In this document: in pieces, positions 3,914 to 51,174 of the stretch
Layout of the letters: the number at the start of each line of letters is the position of its first letter
Numbering within the stretch: position 1 is the first letter of the stretch
Source: Serratia inhibens
Lineage (GTDB): Bacteria > Pseudomonadota > Gammaproteobacteria > Enterobacterales > Enterobacteriaceae
Assembly (NCBI RefSeq): GCF_003591175.1
Contig: NZ_QYYG01000007.1
Location: 186,001-250,000 of the forward strand
DNA: 64,000 bases
Reading direction: 5' to 3'
Program-made: the position numbers and the translations under genes
Notes under the pieces: generated by a model
The model's input: only the letters and a program-made list of their open reading frames with translations
What the model was told of the DNA's origin: nothing
Database searches by the model: none

Positions 3914-3921
3914 CCTTTATA

Positions 3922-4299
<378 letters not shown>

Positions 4300-10396: not shown

Positions 10397-10426
10397 TTAC
10401 ATTTGCTATGTTGTTGGCTGTATGAT
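10397..10426 (+). promoter_or_regulatory. Likely sigma-70 promoter of arcZ
   Basis: TTACAT at 10397-10402 and TATGAT at 10421-10426 are 18 bp apart and lie just upstream of the expected 5' end of ArcZ. This is a pattern call without experimental support. Confidence 0.5.
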
Positions 10427-10432
10427 GTTTAG

Positions 10433-10547
10433 GAATTCTCTACAACCTGCTCGACCAGAACACTGAATACCAATACGCAGGTTCACAATTTCCCTGGTGT
10501 TGGCGCAATATTCGCGCACCCCGGCCTAGGTCGGGGTCATTTTTTTT
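10433..10547 (+). ncRNA. arcZ: Small regulatory RNA ArcZ (RyhA/SraH)
   Basis: An Hfq-dependent sRNA encoded between elbB and arcB, as in E. coli. The processed, active 3' half is strongly conserved: TTTCCCTGGTGTTGGCGCA starts near 10488, and the terminator stem (10518-10523 with 10533-10538) is followed by a T-run at 10540-10547. ArcZ activates rpoS translation and represses many mRNAs, and in E. coli it also affects arcB. The 5' end is less conserved; I set it from the promoter-like element, giving about 115 nt against about 121 in E. coli. Its 3' T-tail overlaps the end of arcB on the other strand. Confidence 0.9.
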
Positions 10548-14601: not shown

Positions 14602-20491
<5,890 letters not shown>

Positions 20492-41323: not shown

Positions 41324-41605
41324 CTATCGTTTATCGGCAATTGAGTAGACTTCATCCCCTGCCCGTTTTCCTACTGCAATAACTAACAAAATGACTTCAG
41401 TATCATTAACTTCATAAACCAGCCGGTAGCCGGATGAACGCAATTTAATCTTGTAGCGATTACTGCGGCCACTGAGCCGTGAAGCTGGCACATGCGGATT
41501 CTCCAACCGCTCCGCCAGCTTCTTTTTCAATTGTTCCCGGATAGGATGCCCCAATTTTTGCCATTCTTTCAGGGCACGTTTCTCGAATTTAAGATTATAG
41601 CTCAT
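41324..41605 (-). CDS. relE: RelE-family mRNA interferase toxin
   Basis: A 93-residue RelE toxin, full length and very close to E. coli RelE (shared KIKLRSSGYRLVY and VISVGKR-like segments). RelE enters the ribosomal A site and cuts mRNA there. The catalytic-type basic and aromatic residues are present: Arg and Lys in the KIKLRSSGYR segment and the Tyr near the C-terminus (EVYS). It overlaps the antitoxin gene by 11 bp. Probably a working toxin-antitoxin pair; it sits in a gap that varies between enterobacteria. Confidence 0.92.
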   Translation of the reverse strand: MSYNLKFEKRALKEWQKLGHPIREQLKKKLAERLENPHVPASRLSGRSNRYKIKLRSSGYRLVYEVNDTEVILLVIAVGKRAGDEVYSIADKR

Positions 41606-41846
41606 CGAGACTCACGCTCACAAACTCAGCATCCTCCATGCGTTCATCTGCGATCCGATTCAGTTCGGCATCTTCAGCAAGCTCTCGATAGTAAGCGTAA
41701 AGCTCTGGAGGAACGCAGTAAAAAGCAGGCTCATTGCGGTTTAATATGGCTACTGCTCCACCATCACCATCGGCGACAGTGCCCATTGGATTCTTTTTTA
41801 AATCCGTGATACTTGCAGCCGTTGTGGTCAATATTTGATAGGTCAT
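41595..41846 (-). CDS. Phd/YefM-type antitoxin partnered with RelE
   Basis: An 83-residue antitoxin upstream of relE. Its start (MTYQILTTTAASITDLKKNP) looks like the Phd/YefM family (short N-terminal DNA-binding fold, then VAILNRNEPAFYCV) rather than the ribbon-helix-helix RelB, so the pair is a hybrid type: RelE toxin with Phd-like antitoxin. I chose ATG 41846 with GAGG upstream; the frame is open to 41894 through a repeat. It binds its own promoter and neutralises the toxin. Confidence 0.88.
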   Translation of the reverse strand: MTYQILTTTAASITDLKKNPMGTVADGDGGAVAILNRNEPAFYCVPPELYAYYRELAEDAELNRIADERMEDAEFVSVSLDEL

Positions 41847-41865
41847 AGTATTTACCTCACTTATT

Positions 41866-41894
41866 AGCACCAACATTGGCACCAACATTAGCAC
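41866..41894 (-). promoter_or_regulatory. Tandem 12-bp repeats upstream of the antitoxin gene
   Basis: Two perfect-but-one 12-bp direct repeats (AGCACCAACATT, GGCACCAACATT) and the first five bases of a third lie 20-48 bp before the antitoxin start. Placement fits an autorepression operator or promoter element. Confidence 0.55.
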
Positions 41895-41951: not shown

Positions 41952-43868
41952 TTAAATCCGGCTTAAACAGTCCAGCGCCACCGCCTTGAAGCTATCGAAA
42001 TTATCGCTGCCCAACAGACGGCTCATCGAACGCTCGCGTACAAAAGTGACGAACAGATCGTAAATCGCCATCGCCTCTTCATAGTCGCTTTTGCTGATCG
42101 CCAGCAGGAAAATCACATGGGCGATCTCACCGTCGCCCCACACCACGCCCTGCGGTGCCAGCAACGTCATCACCACCGTTTTTTTCGCCAGCAATCCCAA
42201 CGAGTGCGGCAGTGCAATACCTTCGCCCAGCATGGTCGATACTATAGCTTCGCGCTCCACTACCGATGGGTAAAAATCGTCACCGACGTACCCTTCCTGC
42301 TCCAGTTGAACGCACACTTTCCGGAACAGCTCCGCCTGCGTCAGTGGCTCGTTCACCACCCTGAAATGCGCGGCGTCGAAGAACTTCTCCAGCATGTAGG
42401 GTTTGGTGCGATCCACCAGCACCAGTTTACCCAGCTGTTCCAGCTGGTATTCGGTAGGAAACGGCGACATCACCACCACCGGTTTGTTCTTTTCGCTGAC
42501 CCGCGCGTTGGAAATGACAAAATCTTCGTCGATATGAGTAAGTACCTCATAATCGCGCAGTGAAACGATGCGCGTCATCACCAGCTGTGGGTACTTGCGT
42601 GCAATCTGCGCCTGGATCATGCGTACCGTTGAATTACCGGTATCGCACACCAGCATCACCTGCGGATGGCGCTCATAGCCGATGTTGTAGTGCCGTTCCA
42701 ACCCCACGCCGATATGCAGCACCAGATAGCCGATTTCGTTTTCGCTCAGGGTGTAAGGCGTGTATTTTCCCCAGCTCGATACCGCCGCCAGCGTCACGTC
42801 ATAGGCCATCGGATAGTGTTGTTTGATATTGGCCAACAGCGGGTTGGGAATATTAATCTGGTATTTCACCCGCGTAATCATGGTCTTGATATGAGTGAGC
42901 AAATCAGCCCGCAGTTGGCGGTCACCCTGCAGGTTGTAGTTATAGTGTGCGTTGATGTACGACAGAATGTAGTCCACCAGCGCTTCTTCGTCGTCGGCGT
43001 TGATCTTGGTCGGCTGCACGTCCTGTACCCGGCGCGCGGCAATATTCACCCTTAAATAAGCCTCTTCCGCCATCGACACTTCTTTGCCGCTGGCCTTGCG
43101 CAGTTCCCCCGACAGCCAGGTGGAAACCTTGCGCACCGCGTCATCGCCGTCTTCAACGTCAAAGTCCGACAACGGGTAGCCATCGCTAATGCGCCGCAGC
43201 GCCACCGCACAGTAGAAAATCAAATACTGCTCACCTTCGTCCGTCAGGCGGATGGCGTATTGCGACAGCAGCGGATGCAGCAGCCCGGCGAAGGTCGCCA
43301 CCTGCGGTTGCAGCAGGATTTCATTGCTGAGCAACGGGTTTTCGGCATCGGCCAGATGCAGTTGGAATAACAGATCGGTCAGGCAAGCGCGGATCGCCAT
43401 CTCCGATCCGAACAGTTTCATGCCGTAGCGCGGTTTGGTTTCAATGGTTAACTGGTAGTTCGTCAGGCGCTCTCTCACCTCAGCCATGTCGTTTTGCAGC
43501 GTTCCGCGGCTGACAAACCATTCATCGGCCAAATCTTCCAGCTTCAGGGAAAAGGCTGAGGTCAAAAAACGAATCAGCAGATAGTGCACCCGCTCTTGCG
43601 CACTGCGCGGCGTCGCGTGCTTTTTGCGCTCCCGGTGCTGCAGAGCGCTGAACAGCGCGGCATCATCCACCTGCAGGCGATAGCCCGCCCCACGACTATG
43701 CACAAAGCGAGCGCCGTATTTTTCCAGGATATCGTTCAACGCTGTGATATCGGCACGCACGGTACGGGTGGATACCGCAAAGCGTTTCGCCAACTCATCC
43801 TGCGGCAAGGTCTCGGACTGCAAAGCGTCGAACAGATAGGCCAAACGCGGGTAGGGAAATCGTACCAT
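41952..43868 (-). CDS. PRD-containing, PTS-controlled transcriptional regulator (MtlR/LicR-like)
   Basis: A 638-residue multidomain regulator. An N-terminal HTH (residues 5-60) is followed by a second, Mga-like HTH (about 88-165). A first PRD region (about 175-290) lacks clear paired histidines. The second PRD (about 295-395) has His326 and His385. An EIIB-like domain has Cys408 (CDTGNST), and a C-terminal EIIA-like domain (about 500-638) has His555 (IALPHS). Such proteins activate sugar genes depending on phosphorylation by the PTS. The gene lies downstream of the exported lactonase gene and the DUF4310-type operon, which it probably controls. Start ATG 43868 follows GGAAAGAGA. Confidence 0.88.
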   Translation of the reverse strand: MVRFPYPRLAYLFDALQSETLPQDELAKRFAVSTRTVRADITALNDILEKYGARFVHSRGAGYRLQVDDAALFSALQHRERKKHATPRSAQERVHYLLIRFLTSAFSLKLEDLADEWFVSRGTLQNDMAEVRERLTNYQLTIETKPRYGMKLFGSEMAIRACLTDLLFQLHLADAENPLLSNEILLQPQVATFAGLLHPLLSQYAIRLTDEGEQYLIFYCAVALRRISDGYPLSDFDVEDGDDAVRKVSTWLSGELRKASGKEVSMAEEAYLRVNIAARRVQDVQPTKINADDEEALVDYILSYINAHYNYNLQGDRQLRADLLTHIKTMITRVKYQINIPNPLLANIKQHYPMAYDVTLAAVSSWGKYTPYTLSENEIGYLVLHIGVGLERHYNIGYERHPQVMLVCDTGNSTVRMIQAQIARKYPQLVMTRIVSLRDYEVLTHIDEDFVISNARVSEKNKPVVVMSPFPTEYQLEQLGKLVLVDRTKPYMLEKFFDAAHFRVVNEPLTQAELFRKVCVQLEQEGYVGDDFYPSVVEREAIVSTMLGEGIALPHSLGLLAKKTVVMTLLAPQGVVWGDGEIAHVIFLLAISKSDYEEAMAIYDLFVTFVRERSMSRLLGSDNFDSFKAVALDCLSRI

Positions 43869-43920: not shown

Positions 43921-45135
43921 TTACTTCGCTATCGGCAGAAACACCATTTGCGAGGGGCTGCCCACCGGCGTATAGCCCTCAACAAAGCTGAGTTTGCCGC
44001 TGACCTTGTCCAGGCTGAAACGGGTGACGTTATCGCTGCGCTGGTTCATCGCATAGAGATAATGCCCGTCCGGGCTCAACGTCAACGACCGCGGATAGTC
44101 ACCGCGCGTCCAGATCTCCGCCACCGGCTTCAGTTCGCCGTCGGCGCCAACGCTGAACTGCGCGATGCTGTTATGCAGCCGGTTGGCGACGTACAGATTC
44201 TTCCCGTCCTCGCTCAGGACCAACCCCGAGGCAAAGCTGGTGCCCTTATAATCGGCCGGCAGCGAAGAGACGGCATGTAATTGTTTCAGAGTACCTTTTT
44301 GGCTGTCGAAACGGTAGCTGGTCAGCGTCGAAGCCTCTTCGTTCACTAACAGCACCGTCTTGCCGTCCGGATGGAACACGAAGTGACGCGGGCCGGCACC
44401 GGCGGAAGAGGCGGCGATCCACGGCGGATCGTTCGGCGACAGTTGGCCGCTTGCGCCGTCGAAGCGCCACTGGTAGAGGCGATCCAGCCCCAGATCGGTA
44501 GAAAACACAAACTTGCCGCTCGGATCGCTGGCGATCATATGCGCGTGCGGGCCATTGTGATCGCTGGCGGCAAAACTGCCCTCCACCGCCCCCGCCGGTT
44601 TACCCGCGCCAGCCGGCCCCTGATCCTGTTGCACTGAACTGGCGTTACCCAATTTACCGTCACTCTCAATCGGGAACGCCGCCACGGTGCCGCTGACGTA
44701 GTTCGCCACCAGCAGATGGCGGCCGTCCGGCGTCAGGGAAAGATAAACCGGCCCTGCGCCCTGCGAATCAACCTGATTCAGCTGCGTCAGCCCGCCATCA
44801 ACCGGGTTGATGCGATAAGCGATGATACCGCCGTGCTTGCTGCCGTTAAAATCGGCCACTTCGCTGGCGACATACAGCGTCCGGCCTTGGGCATCCAGGG
44901 TTAGCTGCGCCGGATTAGGTTGGTTGCTGACCAGCGTTTTAGCGCTCAGCGCGCCGCTGGCCGGATCAACCCGCACCCGGTAAACGCCTTCGCCGTTGGG
45001 GTTGTAAGTACCGATATAAGCAAAATGAGATGACGTGGAGTTCATTGCATCCTCAGCATGCAGCGCCGGGCTGGCGATCGCCAGCAACGCCAGAGTTAAC
45101 GCAGTACGTAAGGGGGAAGTTTGCCAGTTTCGCAT
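43921..45135 (-). CDS. Exported lactonase-family beta-propeller protein
   Basis: A 404-residue protein of the lactonase family (PF10282, same fold as 6-phosphogluconolactonase YbhE/Pgl). Repeated blades carry motifs such as LTPDGRHLLVANY and LSEDGKNLYVANR. Unlike cytosolic Pgl it has a signal peptide (residues 1-27, cut after ALHA), so it works in the periplasm or outside. I chose ATG 45135, preceded by AAGGA; a longer frame to 45171 would put 12 residues before the signal. It lies between the regulator and the aldolase gene, so it may open a lactone substrate before uptake. Its enzyme activity is not shown. Confidence 0.85.
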   Translation of the reverse strand: MRNWQTSPLRTALTLALLAIASPALHAEDAMNSTSSHFAYIGTYNPNGEGVYRVRVDPASGALSAKTLVSNQPNPAQLTLDAQGRTLYVASEVADFNGSKHGGIIAYRINPVDGGLTQLNQVDSQGAGPVYLSLTPDGRHLLVANYVSGTVAAFPIESDGKLGNASSVQQDQGPAGAGKPAGAVEGSFAASDHNGPHAHMIASDPSGKFVFSTDLGLDRLYQWRFDGASGQLSPNDPPWIAASSAGAGPRHFVFHPDGKTVLLVNEEASTLTSYRFDSQKGTLKQLHAVSSLPADYKGTSFASGLVLSEDGKNLYVANRLHNSIAQFSVGADGELKPVAEIWTRGDYPRSLTLSPDGHYLYAMNQRSDNVTRFSLDKVSGKLSFVEGYTPVGSPSQMVFLPIAK

Positions 45136-45216
45136 AGTTATCCTTAGAGAAGTAACGGCGCGGCATGCCACGCCCGTAAAGACAAAACCTGTAGCCTCCC
45201 TGCCTTACGTCATCCG

Positions 45217-45282: not shown

Positions 45283-46023
45283 TTATCCCACCAACTTTTT
45301 ACTCATCGCCAGCAGGGTTTTCACATCCTGCGGACGGGTATCGCCGGTGGCAGAATCAATAATGGAACTGTAGATATGTGGAATAATCCGTTTCACGCCG
45401 GCGGCCAACGCGATCTCAACGATCGGCTCGAAGTTTTCCAGATCGATGCCGCCAGTCGGCTCCAGCATAAAATCATGCTCGGCGCAGGCTTTAGCCACGT
45501 ATTGGTATTCTTCTTTACACGCCAACCCGCCCATCGGGAAATACTTGATGGAGCTGCCGCCCATATCTTTCAACATGGCGATGGCGGTCTCGACCGGTAC
45601 GATGCCGTCTGGCTCAGCAGCGCTCAGCGGGCCGGTTGAGATCTTCACAAAACCGACGCGACCGGTCGGAGAAACCAGACCGTTCACCACGCTGTCGCTC
45701 TGGCCCAACAGCGCACGGCTGGCACCCACGCCGGTAAACACCTGATTGACGTGCTGCGGCTGAACGCGCTGGGCGATCAGGCTGACCATCGCGGATTGCT
45801 TGGGATCGCCCGCCCCCAGCCCCACCGACAGCGCATTCTCGATCAACTGCGCATAGTGCTGCATATCCGCCACCGCGCTGTCGACATCCGGATAGTTCCT
45901 GGAGAGAACCCCGACCAGCACATGCCCTTCTGCCGCCGCATAAATCGCCTGCGCATTGTCTTTTGAGCCGGCCAGCACGTTGAGGCACAGACGGTCGCGA
46001 TAATAATTTGGCTGCAGCTTCAT
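45283..46023 (-). CDS. KDGP-aldolase-family protein (DgaF-like)
   Basis: A 246-residue protein of the KDGP aldolase family (PF07071), related to DgaF of Salmonella, which splits 2-keto-3-deoxygluconate 6-phosphate into pyruvate and glyceraldehyde 3-phosphate. The Schiff-base lysine is probably Lys160 in KYFPMGG; the segment LEPTGGIDLENF fits the barrel. Its ATG overlaps the stop of the PLP-enzyme gene by 4 bp, so the two are made together. In this type of locus the family is also seen in Enterococcus and Aeromonas (from memory). Confidence 0.87.
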   Translation of the reverse strand: MKLQPNYYRDRLCLNVLAGSKDNAQAIYAAAEGHVLVGVLSRNYPDVDSAVADMQHYAQLIENALSVGLGAGDPKQSAMVSLIAQRVQPQHVNQVFTGVGASRALLGQSDSVVNGLVSPTGRVGFVKISTGPLSAAEPDGIVPVETAIAMLKDMGGSSIKYFPMGGLACKEEYQYVAKACAEHDFMLEPTGGIDLENFEPIVEIALAAGVKRIIPHIYSSIIDSATGDTRPQDVKTLLAMSKKLVG

Positions 46024-47138
46024 GCTTGTTTCTCCGTGAACAGATTTTTAATACAGTTAAAGACGGTCATCAGTTGCTGCTCGTCGACGCTACGCACATC
46101 CACTTCAATCTTGCCTTCATTGGCCTTATAACCCCGGAAGTAGATGGCGATCTCGCCGGTTCTCAGCGCCTGGACGATGTCGGTGGTAGAGCGCCCCAGC
46201 ACCGCTTCGTCAAAGGTGATTTCAGCACGGGCGATATCGCGGCCGGCGCTGTCCCAAACGGTTTTAGCGCTGATGCCGGTCAGCGAGTTCAGGTTGGTGA
46301 TAAACGGCGTCATGCGCGCCACCATCTGCTCACCGGTGGTTTTTTCCAGCTTCAGGTAGCTTTCAATCGCCTGCGTCAGGCCGAGGATACCCTCTTTGCC
46401 GACCTTCATCGCCCGGCCAATACCGCCGGATTGCAGCTTCACCCACTCAACGTATTGCCGCTTTCCTACCACCAGGCCGCTGGTTGGGCCTTCGATGGCC
46501 TTGGCACCGCTGTAGATAACCAGGTCGGCCCCCATCTGGTAGTAACACATCAGGTCTTCTTCAGCGGCGGCGTCGACGATCAGCGGCAGATTATGCTTGC
46601 GCGCCACCACCACCGCCTGCTCGACGGAAAGAATGCTTTTCTGTACGCAGTGGTGTGATTTGATGTAGAGGATCGCCGCCGTTTGCGGCGTGATGCAGGC
46701 CTCCAACTGCTCTGCAGAACATTCGTTGGCATAACCCGCCTCAACCACCTTGCCGCCGCCGAGGGCAACCATGGTGTCGACCGGGGCGCCGAAGTTCACG
46801 TTGTGACCGCGCGGCAACACAATCTCGCGCGGCACGGTGATCGGGGCCGAATGCAGGTTCACCAGCAGGTTGGCGTTGTCTTTGACGATCACCGCCGCCA
46901 CCGACTGGGCGATACCCGCCGAGGCACAGGACACGATCACGGCATCTTCCACATTCAGCAGATCGGCGATGTAAGCGCCGGTCTTGTTAACCAGATCCTT
47001 GATTTCAAAATAGTGATTAAGGCCGTAGTCAACGGCGTCAATCACCTCCTGACGCGGGGTAGATACGCCGAGAATGGTCATACGACCGGAAGTATTAATC
47101 ACCTGCTTTAAATTATATTTTTCATAAATCGAAGACAT
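46020..47138 (-). CDS. PLP-dependent DgaE/SelA-like enzyme (candidate amino-sugar-acid ammonia-lyase)
   Basis: A 372-residue fold-type I PLP enzyme of the SelA/DgaE group. The PLP lysine is Lys213 in YSGAKAIEGP, and Asp189 in IVDAAAE would hold the pyridine nitrogen. DgaE of Salmonella turns D-glucosaminate 6-phosphate into 2-keto-3-deoxygluconate 6-phosphate and ammonia. Here the neighbour is the matching aldolase, so the same two-step chemistry is likely. The substrate is inferred, not proven. It overlaps the upstream amidohydrolase gene by 17 bp. Confidence 0.87.
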   Translation of the reverse strand: MSSIYEKYNLKQVINTSGRMTILGVSTPRQEVIDAVDYGLNHYFEIKDLVNKTGAYIADLLNVEDAVIVSCASAGIAQSVAAVIVKDNANLLVNLHSAPITVPREIVLPRGHNVNFGAPVDTMVALGGGKVVEAGYANECSAEQLEACITPQTAAILYIKSHHCVQKSILSVEQAVVVARKHNLPLIVDAAAEEDLMCYYQMGADLVIYSGAKAIEGPTSGLVVGKRQYVEWVKLQSGGIGRAMKVGKEGILGLTQAIESYLKLEKTTGEQMVARMTPFITNLNSLTGISAKTVWDSAGRDIARAEITFDEAVLGRSTTDIVQALRTGEIAIYFRGYKANEGKIEVDVRSVDEQQLMTVFNCIKNLFTEKQA

Positions 47139-48261
47139 GATGGGCTTTCCCTTCGTCGGTTAATAGAATTTCCCCGGCTACCACTGCAGCCAACGGAACC
47201 AACAACTGTTCGCCGCCGACCGATTGCCCTTCCGAGTCGGCAAACACCTGCGGCCCCAGGCGGAGATCGAACAGGGTGAAATCGGCGTCATAACCCGGCT
47301 CCAGCCGGCCTTTATTGCTCAGGTGCAGCGCCGAAGCGGCATTTTCCGTCACGCAGGCAATCACCTGCGGCAGCGACAGGCCGATGCTGAAGAATTTGGA
47401 CATCACCGTCGCCAGGCTGTGTACCGGCCCGGCCATGCGGTTGCGGCAGTAGATATCGGAACTGATGGTGTGCGGGAGAATGCCCAGCCCGATCGCCTGG
47501 CGCGCCACGTCGAAGCTGAAACTGGCGGTACCGTGGCCCACGTCGAGCAACACGCCGCGTTTCAGCGCCCGCTGGATCGACTCACGCAGCGTACCCGCCG
47601 GGGTCAGAATGCGGTTCGGCTTGCCGTTAAAGCAGTGGGTAATGATATCGCCGCGGGTCAGCAGATCGGCGATGTCATCCAGATTCGGCGGGTTATTGCC
47701 GATATGCACCATCAGCGGCAAGCCGTTGTTTTCCTGCTGGATCTGCTTGGCACGCACCAGCGGCACAATGCCGTTTTGCCCCACCACGCTGCTGCTCATG
47801 CGCGCCTTGATGCCGATGATGAAACCGGGGTACGCATCGATGGATTTTTTCACCGTCGGCGGGTCGATGTCCGCCAGGTCGGCCAGCTCATTTTGGCGTA
47901 ACAACCCGATGCGCGAGATATTCAGGAAAGCGAACACGTTGGTTTTGGCATGGCGCGTCAGGGCATAGAACTCGTCAACATCGTCGGTGCCGGTGCTGCC
48001 GGCGTCAACCACCGAGGTCACGCCGCTGGCGACGCCCACTAAATCAGGTTCGTCATGGTAAATCGGCGAAGAGGGATAACAATGCACGTGGGAGTCGACC
48101 CAGCCGGCGCTCAGGCGGCAGTTGCCCGCCAGATCCAGCTGCCTGCGGGCGTTGACGTCATCGGTCAACTGCCCAACGACGACAATCTTGCCGTTCTGAA
48201 CCGCCAGATCGACCAACCGGTCATCCGCCAACCTGGCGCGTCGGATTACTAAGTCATACAT
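47122..48261 (-). CDS. Amidohydrolase/deacetylase-family metalloenzyme (EF_0837-type)
   Basis: A 379-residue amidohydrolase-superfamily enzyme with a TIM barrel. Metal ligands are His58 and His60 (DSHVH), a probably carbamylated Lys152 (IGIKAR), His186, His209 and Asp269. It looks like members that remove acyl groups from N-acyl amino acids or sugars. It is co-transcribed with the PLP lyase and aldolase, which act on free amino sugar acids, so it may remove the N-acyl group first. ATG 48261 follows GGAG. Confidence 0.86.
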   Translation of the reverse strand: MYDLVIRRARLADDRLVDLAVQNGKIVVVGQLTDDVNARRQLDLAGNCRLSAGWVDSHVHCYPSSPIYHDEPDLVGVASGVTSVVDAGSTGTDDVDEFYALTRHAKTNVFAFLNISRIGLLRQNELADLADIDPPTVKKSIDAYPGFIIGIKARMSSSVVGQNGIVPLVRAKQIQQENNGLPLMVHIGNNPPNLDDIADLLTRGDIITHCFNGKPNRILTPAGTLRESIQRALKRGVLLDVGHGTASFSFDVARQAIGLGILPHTISSDIYCRNRMAGPVHSLATVMSKFFSIGLSLPQVIACVTENAASALHLSNKGRLEPGYDADFTLFDLRLGPQVFADSEGQSVGGEQLLVPLAAVVAGEILLTDEGKAHHVFDL

Positions 48262-48330
48262 ACTGCGCTACTCCTTTTCCAGCAGGGGGCGGCGCACCGC
48301 CCCCACTATCGTACAGCTCTGGAACGGTGA

Positions 48331-48981
48331 TTAAGCAATGGCTACCGGGAAAATGGCCCCTAACAGCATTGCGCCAAGGATCGCTCCGCCAGTGATTGGC
48401 TTGCCCCAGATATAGAACAACAGCGCGCCAAGCAGCGAACCTACGCCAATCGGAATGGATGCGGTCATCGCCGACAGGATGATCAACGGCCCCAGGAAAC
48501 GGCCGGAGGAGTTACCTGCCCCCATCATCACGTCTGCGCCGTAGGTGGAGTTGCTCTGGTTGATGGTAAATTTACGCGCCAGAATGATCAGGTAGCCAAT
48601 CGCCAGGCCAATCACCAGGCCGGTCACCAGCGAGGCGGCGAAATTGGCGACCGGGAAGATAATCCCCGCGCCCAGCAGCAGCGCCGGAACGCCCAGCCCC
48701 ACACCGGTCTGGATCGCACCGCCGATATCCAGAATGCCCACCAGCGAACCTTCAATGATGCGCGCAAACAGAAAGCTGGCGCCGAATGCCGCCACCGCAC
48801 CATAAACGCCGGTGTCCATCCCGGCGCGGAGCATGGAAACGAAGGCTACTTCGTTAAACGCACCTATGCCATACAGGTAATACATGTGCGTCCCGGCGAA
48901 CACGCCGGACGAGAGCAGACCGACAAAAATCGGGAATGACCAGTCGGCGTACCAGAAGCCTTTTTGGGTTTGTTCTTCCAT
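48331..48981 (-). CDS. DUF4310 family membrane protein
   Basis: A 216-residue integral membrane protein of the DUF4310 (EF_0833-type) family with about six hydrophobic helices and several glycine-rich turns (GVGLGVPALLLGAG, GAGNSSGRFLGP). Function is unknown. It always appears beside DUF4311, DUF4312 and SFCGS proteins (from memory), so it is probably one half of a transport channel. The gap to the amidohydrolase gene is 69 bp; DUF4311 lies 11 bp upstream. Confidence 0.85.
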   Translation of the reverse strand: MEEQTQKGFWYADWSFPIFVGLLSSGVFAGTHMYYLYGIGAFNEVAFVSMLRAGMDTGVYGAVAAFGASFLFARIIEGSLVGILDIGGAIQTGVGLGVPALLLGAGIIFPVANFAASLVTGLVIGLAIGYLIILARKFTINQSNSTYGADVMMGAGNSSGRFLGPLIILSAMTASIPIGVGSLLGALLFYIWGKPITGGAILGAMLLGAIFPVAIA

Positions 48982-48992
48982 TATCCCGCTCC

Positions 48993-49769
48993 TTACTTAC
49001 CGCTCAGGGTGTTGTGAATGGTGTCCAGCCAGCCCGGCACGCCGAGGCTGAAGGACTCGAGGACTTTCATGTCGAAGCCGCGGAAGAAACCGCTCAGCAC
49101 GAACAGCAGCACGATCACCGCCATCATGATCTTGGTGATTTTGTTCCAGCCGCTCTCTTCCACGCCTTTACCGATCAGGATGCCCAGAACCAAACCCGGT
49201 ACGGCGTTACCCATGATCAGTTGCGCCAGGCCGCCGAAAATGGTGCCCCAGAAACCGGAGCGACGCCCGGCGTCGATCGCCGCCAGCCAGAAGATCACCG
49301 GCATCACGGTGTTCACCAGCAGGTTGGCCGCCGGCACCAGCACTTTGATTGCGGTAACCTGCAGCGCAGCGGGCACTGCGGAAGCGGTGGTATTGAGGAA
49401 CGCCACCACCAGCATGCCGATAACGCCGCAAGCGATAGCCATTTTTTTCGGATCATGCAGCGTTTGCGCCAGATTGCGGTTCTTGACCATCAAGGCTGCT
49501 GCGCCCCAATGAGGGATAATGCGGTGGTCAACGTCCTGCGTGAAGGCACCCGCCGCCACGGAAGACGCCCAGGCGTTGAAGAAGAAACCCAGGCCGAAAG
49601 AGAAGTGGGAAGCCGGATCGCCTTCGCAGGAATTCAGCTCGCCCAGGGTGCGGAAGGCGCCCATGCCCTGCGTCGTCGGAGCATGGAACATGCGTGCGGC
49701 GCCGGCCCCTACGCCAACCCCCACCAGTCCGCCAATAATAAGCGACTTAAATAAGATGATTAAAAACAT
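48993..49769 (-). CDS. DUF4311 family membrane protein
   Basis: A 258-residue integral membrane protein of the DUF4311 (EF_0832-type) family with about six to seven helices. The glycine-rich first helix (GGLVGVGVGAGAARMFHAP) and the segment GAFRTLGELNSCEGDPASHF are notable. It probably pairs with DUF4310 as a membrane channel. No energy-coupling ATPase is encoded nearby. Function unproven. Confidence 0.85.
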   Translation of the reverse strand: MFLIILFKSLIIGGLVGVGVGAGAARMFHAPTTQGMGAFRTLGELNSCEGDPASHFSFGLGFFFNAWASSVAAGAFTQDVDHRIIPHWGAAALMVKNRNLAQTLHDPKKMAIACGVIGMLVVAFLNTTASAVPAALQVTAIKVLVPAANLLVNTVMPVIFWLAAIDAGRRSGFWGTIFGGLAQLIMGNAVPGLVLGILIGKGVEESGWNKITKIMMAVIVLLFVLSGFFRGFDMKVLESFSLGVPGWLDTIHNTLSGK

Positions 49770-49799
49770 CAGTATACCCTTTGATTTATGCTAACGTTT

Positions 49800-50096
49800 T
49801 TATTTCGTGACGAAGACAACCTTTTCTGTATTGATCATCGTCACGTTCACGGTTATTTCCAGCGTCACGGTATAGACTTTTCTTTCTCGCGGTAAAAAGA
49901 AAAAGAGAAATTTCTCTTTTGTTATTTTCTCTTCCGCTTTTAATACGCTGACATCCTGCGGTTCAATACGCAGCAGGATATTGCTGGTGGATTTCAATAC
50001 CGTACCCTGCACATTAGCCAAAGCGGAAGCAAAAGCTTTCGCTTTGCTGTCCCCTTTGCCCTCCACCTTTACCGATGTGGTATATTGTTCTTTCAT
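49800..50096 (-). CDS. DUF4312 family small protein
   Basis: A 98-residue soluble protein of the DUF4312 (EF_0831-type) family, with a likely alpha/beta fold, no signal peptide and no membrane helix. Residues 60-80 are rich in Lys, Glu and Phe. Its ATG shares one base with the SFCGS stop (TAATG), so translation is coupled. It may be a cytosolic part of the transporter. Confidence 0.84.
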   Translation of the reverse strand: MKEQYTTSVKVEGKGDSKAKAFASALANVQGTVLKSTSNILLRIEPQDVSVLKAEEKITKEKFLFFFLPRERKVYTVTLEITVNVTMINTEKVVFVTK

Positions 50097-50461
50097 TACG
50101 GGTTGCCGTGTTTTTTGATGTAGGCTTCCACCAGTCTTTGGCCCAATTCTTCTTTATCCATAAAACCAAAACCCAGCACGGTATAACCTTCATTGATTGC
50201 CGTCACGCCTTCATCAATGGAGCGCATGCCGTATTTTGCTTTGTAGCCGTATTTGGTCTGCGCGGTAATTGCCCCGGCGCCGCCGCTACCGCAGAAGGAA
50301 ATTCCCAACTGCGCACCTTCCGCTTTCATTACGTCACCCAGTTTCATATCCGCCGCTACGCCAGGGATCACGATGGCTTTCCCGCCTGCTGTTTCAATGC
50401 CCTGGCCGACTTTCTGGCCTTTTCCCAAACGATCGCCAATCACTACGGTAATTTGACCCAT
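50096..50461 (-). CDS. Glycine-rich SFCGS family protein
   Basis: A 121-residue cytosolic protein with the family motif GISFCGSGGAGA around Cys57. The N-terminal beta-alpha start (ITVVIGDRLGKG) and one exposed cysteine before a glycine-rich turn recall EIIB phosphocarriers and also E. coli YhfU (a DUF2620 protein with CNTGAGAA at the same place). I therefore suggest an EIIB-like role, but this is inference. ATG 50461 follows AGGAGA. Confidence 0.85.
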   Translation of the reverse strand: MGQITVVIGDRLGKGQKVGQGIETAGGKAIVIPGVAADMKLGDVMKAEGAQLGISFCGSGGAGAITAQTKYGYKAKYGMRSIDEGVTAINEGYTVLGFGFMDKEELGQRLVEAYIKKHGNP

Positions 50462-50496
50462 GCTATTTTCTCCTGATGATATGAATGCGTTAAATG

Positions 50497-50844
50497 CTAT
50501 TGGTTATTATCTTTTGCCACTTCAAAATGCACAGAAAGCAAATAAGCTTCTTCGATAGGTAGCGTCGCAAAATTATCGACCACCCGCTCCGCCATTTTCA
50601 TCGATTCCTCTGAAATCTCGTCAAACAGCGATTTATCGACTTCCGGCAAGGGCTCACCGGTGATTGAACGCAGTACCATGGCGCGAATATGCGATTCCAG
50701 CATCTGTTGCTGCACCGCATTGGTATAAATGCCTTCTGCATTCAGCATGGCGGTAATATCGGCCAGCACCTGATCGGTGATCGCCCCAGCCTCGCTGATG
50801 TCAGATCGTTCATTTTTTTCTATCGCAACAGATCCTTCATTCAC
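50497..50844 (-). CDS. Small PRD-domain protein (EF_0829-type)
   Basis: A 115-residue single PRD domain with no HTH. The two conserved PRD histidines are His52 (ESHIRAM) and His106 (LSVHFE). PRDs are phosphorylated by PTS proteins and usually sit in regulators; a free-standing one, like E. coli YhfY, may tune the transporter or the regulator. The start is GTG at 50844 with AGGGG 8 bp upstream. An ATG at about 50816 is out of frame. First gene of the operon. Confidence 0.84.
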   Translation of the reverse strand: MNEGSVAIEKNERSDISEAGAITDQVLADITAMLNAEGIYTNAVQQQMLESHIRAMVLRSITGEPLPEVDKSLFDEISEESMKMAERVVDNFATLPIEEAYLLSVHFEVAKDNNQ

Positions 50845-51174
50845 TTTTCAATACCCCTGATTCCAACATTATTCGTAAGTCGCACAATGCATCACTTGAA
50901 TATACCCTATGAATTTCAAGTTTCAGCCAGGCGGTCAGCTCGTGAGTCTTGTAAAGCAGCCAACAACGCTGCTGATTGAAAGGCGATGGGTATTACCCGC
51001 TTTCTTTGATGTCTTACCCTAACCCCGGGGAGAATTTCTGTGTAGCCGCTTTTTTTCCAGTTTAAAGTGGAAATTCAATGGTTGGCAGGGATCCATTTCG
51101 CACAATAAGCGCTTTTAAGATAATTTAATTAAATTACAAAAAGATAATGCCACAACGGGTTTCCCGTTCTCTCT
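50845..51174. promoter_or_regulatory. Control region between the DUF4310-type operon and rnk
   Basis: About 330 bp without a gene. It holds one palindromic repeat (50901-50994), then an AT-rich zone (51040-51150) that probably carries promoters for both sides; GATAAT occurs at 51119-51124 and 51143-51148 on the plus strand. I do not find a convincing sigma-54 or CRP site for the operon. Confidence 0.45.
50901..50994 (-). repeat. Palindromic repeat with TATACCC / GGGTAT ends
   Basis: About 94 bp with TATACCC at one end and GGGTAT at the other. It holds TTTCAAG and TTGAAAG near the ends and GCAGCCAACAACGCTGC in the middle, a 6-bp stem. It is in the expected 5' leader of the operon that starts at 50844. 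Confidence 0.7.

Follow-up and report, generated by a model that had tools for sequence, protein, structure and literature searches.

What does a bacterium do with a row of eight genes whose protein families have all been catalogued without a function? This question is raised by eight intact open reading frames (ORFs) on the minus strand at positions 45283-50844 of a 64,000-nucleotide stretch of Serratia inhibens DNA (contig NZ_QYYG01000007.1, positions 186,001 to 250,000; hereafter the window); the families were already on record, and their function is what was new to ask. We propose, with a probability of about 0.5, that this cassette serves to take up an N-acylated 2-amino-2-deoxy-aldonate, of which N-acetyl-D-glucosaminate is the likeliest, that the sugar acid is phosphorylated at position 6 at or after entry, and that it is then degraded. 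A preliminary description of the same DNA had outlined a catabolic route of this kind; that idea is here strengthened and amended, and the possible new importer is the valuable part.

Gene content and inheritance of the cassette

All eight proteins pass the curated cut-offs of NCBIfam models named after EF_08xx/AHA_39xx or DgaE (TIGR03577-TIGR03583 and TIGR01437, catalogue entries without function), with bit scores over cut-off of 131/69 for the PRD protein, 219.5/141 for SFCGS, 129/90 for DUF4312, 501/301 for DUF4311, 393/215 for DUF4310, 531/432 for the amidohydrolase, 595/385 for the DgaE family and 396/222 for the aldolase. The small PRD protein is recognised by NCBIfam only, the other families by both Pfam and NCBIfam. 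Counted from the aldolase gene upstream to the PRD gene, the spacing is -4, -17, 69, 11, 30, -1 and 35 bp, just as the preliminary description had given the eight genes with their gaps and overlaps. Left out of its operon were two genes on the same strand, namely a beta-propeller lactonase gene (43921-45171; PF10282), 111 bp from the aldolase gene, and a gene for a regulator with HTH_11, Mga, PRD and EIIA_2 domains (41952-43868), 52 bp from the lactonase gene. Both probably belong to the same operon, the lactonase being an optional part of the cassette. A promoter-like match upstream of the PRD gene (50899-50926, minus strand, as are all cassette features given below) is weak: 9/12 bases agree, and the region holds 8 such sites where 4.9 would be expected.

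Three of the eight families were surveyed in 398 sampled genomes of the phylum, including 18 of the window's family. DUF4311, TIGR03583 and TIGR01437 scored over their cut-offs in the identical 12 genomes, all in the window's family, and 6 of the 18 family members had none of them over cut-off. Relatives of DUF4311 were found in at least 498 stretches of one genome-collection contig scan, from which 80 related loci were kept, 8 of them cut short. All eight genes were matched in the same order and on one strand in 77 of these loci, and the remaining three end at a contig edge; the row is therefore not a chance arrangement. One ORF covers at least 75% of each window protein in 74/80 loci, and further loci below this level are L037 (partial DUF4310, lyase and aldolase), L066 (a single ORF for SFCGS and DUF4312) and L079 (short DUF4312). 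L037 and L066, each a single record, possibly hold broken or fused cassette genes. The regulator was matched in 78/80 related loci and the lactonase in 32/80, some of the loci being cut short. The preliminary description would have been refuted had the membrane proteins not been inherited together with the enzymes; in both samples they are, and the Enterococcus that it named as a host does carry the families (E. faecalis record).

Judging by record titles and taxonomy, 79 of the 80 related loci are from Enterobacterales, the exception being 'Xenophilus sp. AP218F'. The nearest among the fetched loci is that of Serratia plymuthica. Further loci on plasmid records are from Klebsiella (2), Bartonella (2), Aeromonas and Enterococcus. 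In Aeromonas caviae KAM479 (L016, 9738-10349) there is no amidohydrolase or ammonia-lyase match, and the start of DUF4310 is fused in frame to the aldolase at a common GVGA stretch, as the result of a deletion or of an assembly error. A scan of viral contigs for DUF4311 gave no relative, and E. coli genomes gave no close DNA match. An E. coli relative of DUF4311 suggested by sub-threshold matches was dropped, the weak match in relative L013 being to an ORF that we take to be DjlA-like.

The enzymes and their probable substrate

The two genes at the downstream end encode a DgaE-family ammonia-lyase dependent on pyridoxal phosphate (PLP; 46020-47138; TIGR01437) and a DgaF-family aldolase of 2-keto-3-deoxygluconate 6-phosphate (KDGP; 45283-46023; PF07071, TIGR03581). 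Their kinship to DgaE and DgaF, as proposed beforehand, is supported both by the family models and by structure-database matches, the lyase matching the DgaE-type structures 7lc0/7lce and the aldolase several solved aldolases. The aldolase also exceeds the cut-off of the DgaF equivalog NF047796 (386.9 vs 300 bits) and is the sole PF07071 match in its genome. K213, H162 and H163 of the lyase are kept (in Bartonella, position 162 is Ala), and K213, given its SGAKA context, presumably binds PLP.

A study on DGL places Arg301, Arg332 and Arg346 at its phosphate site (PMC9529869). They align with R304, R335 and R349 of the window lyase, and H163 likewise has a DGL counterpart. At the equivalents of all three positions, Arg was found in 77/77 related loci with a letter there. 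We compared 15 DgaE-family sequences at these positions: all three arginines were present in 10/10 lyases encoded with a KDGP aldolase, and the third position was Cys in 5/5 lyases whose fetched stretch lacks a KDGP aldolase. The aldolase-less relatives (L137, L165-L168) lie in ATP-binding cassette (ABC) or GntP contexts, with RidA (three) or an amidohydrolase nearby; these Cys variants probably act on a different, non-phosphorylated substrate. The window lyase, as far as its residues tell, says that its own substrate would be phosphorylated. Since the arginines of the phosphate site are retained and no kinase is encoded in the operon, a phosphorylation has to be added to the route; the preliminary description had omitted it from its otherwise plausible path starting at an N-acyl-amino-sugar acid.

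The amidohydrolase/deacetylase (47122-48261; TIGR03583, EF_0837) has intact HVH, Lys, two-His and Asp motifs, which we take to be the metal ligands. Its best matches in the PDB are 8wzy, 2ics and 2ogj; D-aminoacylases match it over residues 12-88 only, and it falls outside the OngB-type D-aminoacylase family. It belongs to cog3964, enzymes of which reportedly (Ornelas et al., 2013) hydrolyse acetyl-(R)-mandelate. It might then be an esterase for O-acyl-2-hydroxy acids, with something other than an N-acyl amino-sugar acid as the true substrate of the pathway. We regard this as improbable, given that the gene stands beside that of an ammonia-lyase needing a free amine in 77/80 loci and that a loop of the form Asp-Ile-Tyr-x-(Arg/Lys/Asn)-Asn-Arg, present in 7/7 compared aldolase-linked amidohydrolases, is absent from 3/3 ABC-linked ones, which are 38-39% identical to the window enzyme.

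By analogy, the substrate is probably an N-acyl-2-amino-aldonate. N-acetyl-D-glucosaminate fits best because in the ong pathway, treated below, a deacylase likewise precedes an ammonia-lyase, and because a lactonase, whose N-terminus in the window resembles a signal peptide on visual inspection, fits an aldonate. Two genomes of the window's family (L163, L164) carry a typical dga operon as well as the DUF cassette, and therefore the cassette substrate should differ from free glucosaminate.

Proposed import and phosphorylation

The same three enzymes occur with different transporters. In Priestia, the amidohydrolase, DgaE and aldolase are found with a sugar kinase and a GntP gluconate symporter (kinase 1/1). 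C. difficile and Niallia combine a Lac-type EIIC of the phosphotransferase system (PTS), MupG, the three enzymes and a kinase (2/2), and E. faecalis has the DUF set together with a PTS EIIC, a 99-amino-acid protein, MupG, the enzymes and a PfkB kinase (1/1). No kinase was matched in the mannose-PTS loci with DgaE and aldolase (L. paracasei and two cassette-bearing genomes; 0/3), the stretches of which also gave no amidohydrolase match, or in the fetched stretches of the DUF-only loci (0/80 related loci including the 8 cut short, 0/1 Klebsiella, 0/2 Bartonella). A kinase is thus found unless the importer phosphorylates, a pattern from which the DUF importer is predicted to phosphorylate its cargo. 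Genome G249 (L168), where a GntP symporter lies near a DgaE relative with no kinase match and no aldolase in the stretch, was left out of this rule as an aldolase-less Cys variant. A disaccharide cargo is suggested by the MupG-like glycosidase that occurs in E. faecalis, C. difficile and Niallia; the aldonate half of this disaccharide would enter unphosphorylated, which would explain the kinase in the MupG loci. In two fetched dga operons, two soluble and two membrane PTS subunits occupy the places of SFCGS, DUF4312, DUF4311 and DUF4310.

AlphaFold2 models of the glycine-rich SFCGS protein (50096-50461; PF14272/TIGR03577) were built from 58 sequences, the best having a mean predicted local distance difference test (pLDDT) score of 87.3 and the other four 59-71. 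Foldseek against the PDB gave 13 matches with E <=1e-3 (best E 9.1e-5, template-modelling score ~0.7), each to RpiB or galactose-6-phosphate isomerase, and rows 1-36 of its output were these enzymes or sugar isomerases related to them; SFCGS is accordingly predicted to have the ribose-5-phosphate-isomerase-B fold. A profile search had two RpiB structures among four hits, not significant alone, and in a sequence alignment that is likewise not significant alone the invariant Cys57 coincides with the Cys in the CGTG motif of RpiB. The LacAB_rpiB Pfam model was touched below its cut-off by the E. faecalis SFCGS (E 0.23), and the window copy gave no match to it.

Catalysis by RpiB depends on a Cys and on His99. 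The predicted fold and the position of Cys57 would suit an active isomerase, in which case the substrate would be an aldose or ketose isomerised in the pathway. In SFCGS, however, only the Cys of the catalytic pair is kept: at the position of His99 stands Asn90, almost invariant, which is the substitution of the H99N mutant named in the title of PDB 2vvr, and no SFCGS match was found in three amidohydrolase-DgaE-aldolase clusters with other transporters (L131, L132, L134). An isomerase role therefore seems to us very improbable. Because an RpiB-type fold is joined with Asn90, SFCGS may instead bind a sugar phosphate and is probably not an ordinary isomerase; the lack of a match in the clusters with other transporters associates it with transport and not with catabolism.

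DUF4312 (49800-50096; PF14189/TIGR03578) is a small protein, and DUF4311 (48993-49769; PF14188/TIGR03580), with hydrophobic segments, and DUF4310 (48331-48981; PF14187/TIGR03579) are membrane proteins. DUF4311 is 84-100% identical to 60 aligned related-locus sequences and 68% identical to that of E. faecalis. PDB profile searches with these three proteins gave no meaningful match. In the stand-alone PRD protein (50497-50844, 115 amino acids; TIGR03582, EF_0829/AHA_3910 family), H52 is present in 84/84 aligned sequences and H106 in 83/84 (all but E. coli YhfY). The three small soluble proteins that the preliminary description had grouped as transporter components are thus of different kinds, a PRD protein with two conserved His, a predicted RpiB fold and DUF4312.

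Conserved His and Cys residues are also present in the regulator, where PRD His326 is found in 82/82 sequences, His385 in 81/81 with a letter there and EIIA His555 in 80/81 (Gln in E. faecalis). Cys408 (81/81) lies in a IIB-like stretch recognised by eye and uncalled by Pfam. On a plasmid of Bartonella HY406, the cassette and regulator are followed by a fusion of HPr and EI (HPr and phosphoenolpyruvate (PEP)-utiliser domains, with HARP and SH motifs), 99.7% identical to that of Bartonella HY761; the fusion genes lie at 8047-10062 of L018 and 15405-17420 of L019. The npr gene is nearby in the window and in 17/80 related loci, a proximity that may reflect position only.

Putting these elements together, the lactonase, where present, would open an aldonolactone outside the cytoplasm, and DUF4311 and DUF4310 would provide the route across the membrane, on whose inner side SFCGS, DUF4312 and the PRD protein would lie. 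During or right after entry, the sugar acid would be phosphorylated at position 6 through a PEP-driven relay running from HPr to PRD or EIIA histidines and possibly to Cys57 of SFCGS. The amidohydrolase would take off the acyl group, in an order relative to phosphorylation that we infer tentatively, the DgaE-like lyase would remove ammonia to give KDGP, and the aldolase would yield pyruvate and glyceraldehyde 3-phosphate. The PRD/EIIA regulator would sense the phosphorylation state and switch the operon.

A bolder form of this mechanism is that SFCGS, DUF4312, DUF4311, DUF4310 and the PRD protein constitute a PEP-dependent group translocator of a new class, which phosphorylates its sugar-acid cargo as a PTS enzyme II does and is descended from different folds. 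Its sugar-phosphate-handling or phosphocarrier subunit (through Cys57) would once have been an RpiB-type isomerase, the PRD domain would act as phosphocarrier and not as regulator, and the E. coli yhf operon might hold a second member. We put this forward as a doubtful suggestion.

The same catabolism could also be fed by an ordinary secondary transporter made of the DUF proteins, with a chromosomal kinase phosphorylating the sugar acid or 2-keto-3-deoxygluconate (KDG) and the PRD proteins having regulatory roles only. We see this as a real prospect, at less than even odds. It agrees with the GntP-type symporter that serves the three enzymes in Priestia, with the lack of a PTS domain in the DUFs and with the ong pathway, in which phosphorylation occurs only at the KDG stage (PMC9537276). 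It sits less easily with the phosphate-site arginines of the DgaE-like enzyme, with a kinase that was not found in the DUF-only loci and is present in aldolase-bearing symporter and disaccharide-type-PTS loci, and with the HPr-EI of Bartonella.

Several observations weigh against import coupled to phosphorylation and against the proposed pathway more generally. Neither Pfam nor profile comparison finds a recognisable PTS EIIA, EIIB or EIIC/IID domain in SFCGS, DUF4312, DUF4311 or DUF4310, and comparison of DUF4310/4311 with mannose and lactose PTS subunits gave nothing, with profiles that were thin (four sequences at most). No His or Cys is conserved in DUF4312, the window copy having neither residue, and the DUF4311 model (mean pLDDT 44.9) is too poor for a fold search. 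The kinase count of 0/80 represents few independent events because the loci are nearly all from Enterobacterales, and the transporter contexts other than DUF-only are single or few records. A relative of the kinase found in C. difficile is encoded in the window's genome (25% identity, E 5.4e-6), and such a chromosomal kinase could act in place of phosphorylation by the importer; the Bartonella HPr-EI may serve only regulators. Among the enzymes, the window lyase scores under the DGL equivalog cut-off (374.9 vs 600 bits), and the E. faecalis record used has a short aldolase ORF (16573-17064) that is not listed as a gene. Finally, LPMO_10 occurs in only 3/12 cassette genomes, on which ground oxidised chitin was rejected as a general source of the substrate. 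The window's own genome is one of the three, with 3 LPMO_10 matches, and there oxidised chitin may be the source; LPMO_10 lies ~13 kb from the aldolase in genome G370 and 24 kb from the ammonia-lyase in G279, with other genes between.

Genomic surroundings

The upstream neighbours of the cassette look like cybC, pmbA and yjgA, as annotated in Klebsiella, and a further gene on that side is presumably rnk. A gene for a RelE-like toxin and an overlapping antitoxin-like gene (41324-41894) lie between npr and the regulator. A RelBE pair also adjoins the regulator in Klebsiella L017, and 0/80 related loci gave a match. Beyond the regulator and the RelE-like pair, the translations suggest the genes lptC-lptA-lptB-rpoN-hpf-ptsN-rapZ-npr. 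The same window contains RNase P RNA at 3921-4299 and the small RNA ArcZ at 10425-10531.

Comparison with known systems

Among the papers searched, none named DUF4310, DUF4311 or DUF4312, and those matching 'sfcgs' seem from their titles to be unrelated. With the reading proposed here, four domains of unknown function gain a testable role, and, if the transport reading is true, a mechanism is added to those of bacterial sugar uptake.

The E. coli yhf operon (L015, 4033-9423) resembles the cassette in having a small PRD protein (YhfY), a small DUF2620 protein (YhfU) and a membrane protein (YhfT); its enzymes differ from those of the cassette. The cassette PRD protein and YhfY match pairwise at E 2e-6, a weak match to DUF2620 (E 0.034) spans most of the E. 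faecalis SFCGS, and YhfU, like that SFCGS, touches the LacAB_rpiB model below cut-off (E 0.065). A homology of SFCGS to YhfU was not significant by hhalign and is kept as a weak lead through the DUF2620 match. The idea that DUF4311 and DUF4310 are halves of YhfT was rejected, profile comparisons not being significant. PF10941 (DUF2620) was found in 0/229 sampled genomes. RpiB and galactose-6-phosphate isomerase share the predicted fold of SFCGS and differ from it at the His99 position, which is Asn.

The E. faecalis copy differs from that of the window in the insertion of a PTS EIIC, a 99-amino-acid protein and MupG and in the addition of a PfkB kinase. The Salmonella dgaABCDEF operon resembles the cassette in its DgaE-type ammonia-lyase, DgaF-type aldolase and PTS-linked PRD regulator (PMC4987338). 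It has a mannose-family PTS where the window has four DUF proteins, together with an added deacylase; no mannose-family IIA, IIB, IIC or IID domain was found in the window operon by Pfam or NCBIfam, and the two fetched dga relatives have a mannose PTS and no amidohydrolase.

A parallel to the proposed route is the ong pathway for N-acetylglucosaminate in Pseudoalteromonas, which comprises deacetylation, deamination and formation of KDG-6-phosphate, with an SSS symporter and a kinase acting after deamination (PMC9537276). OngB is a D-aminoacylase-type Cys/His/His enzyme (PMC12017989), unlike the window amidohydrolase. In a study of chitin use by Aeromonas, lytic polysaccharide monooxygenases were found, OngB and OngC had only distant or non-significant matches, and other deacetylases and deaminases for N-acetylglucosaminate (GlcNAc1A) remained possible (PMC11653859). 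Six NCBIfam model names carry the A. hydrophila numbers AHA_3910 to AHA_3914 and AHA_3917, which indicates the same cassette in that species. These genes, and by inference the two between them, are thus candidates to fill the GlcNAc1A gap in Aeromonas.

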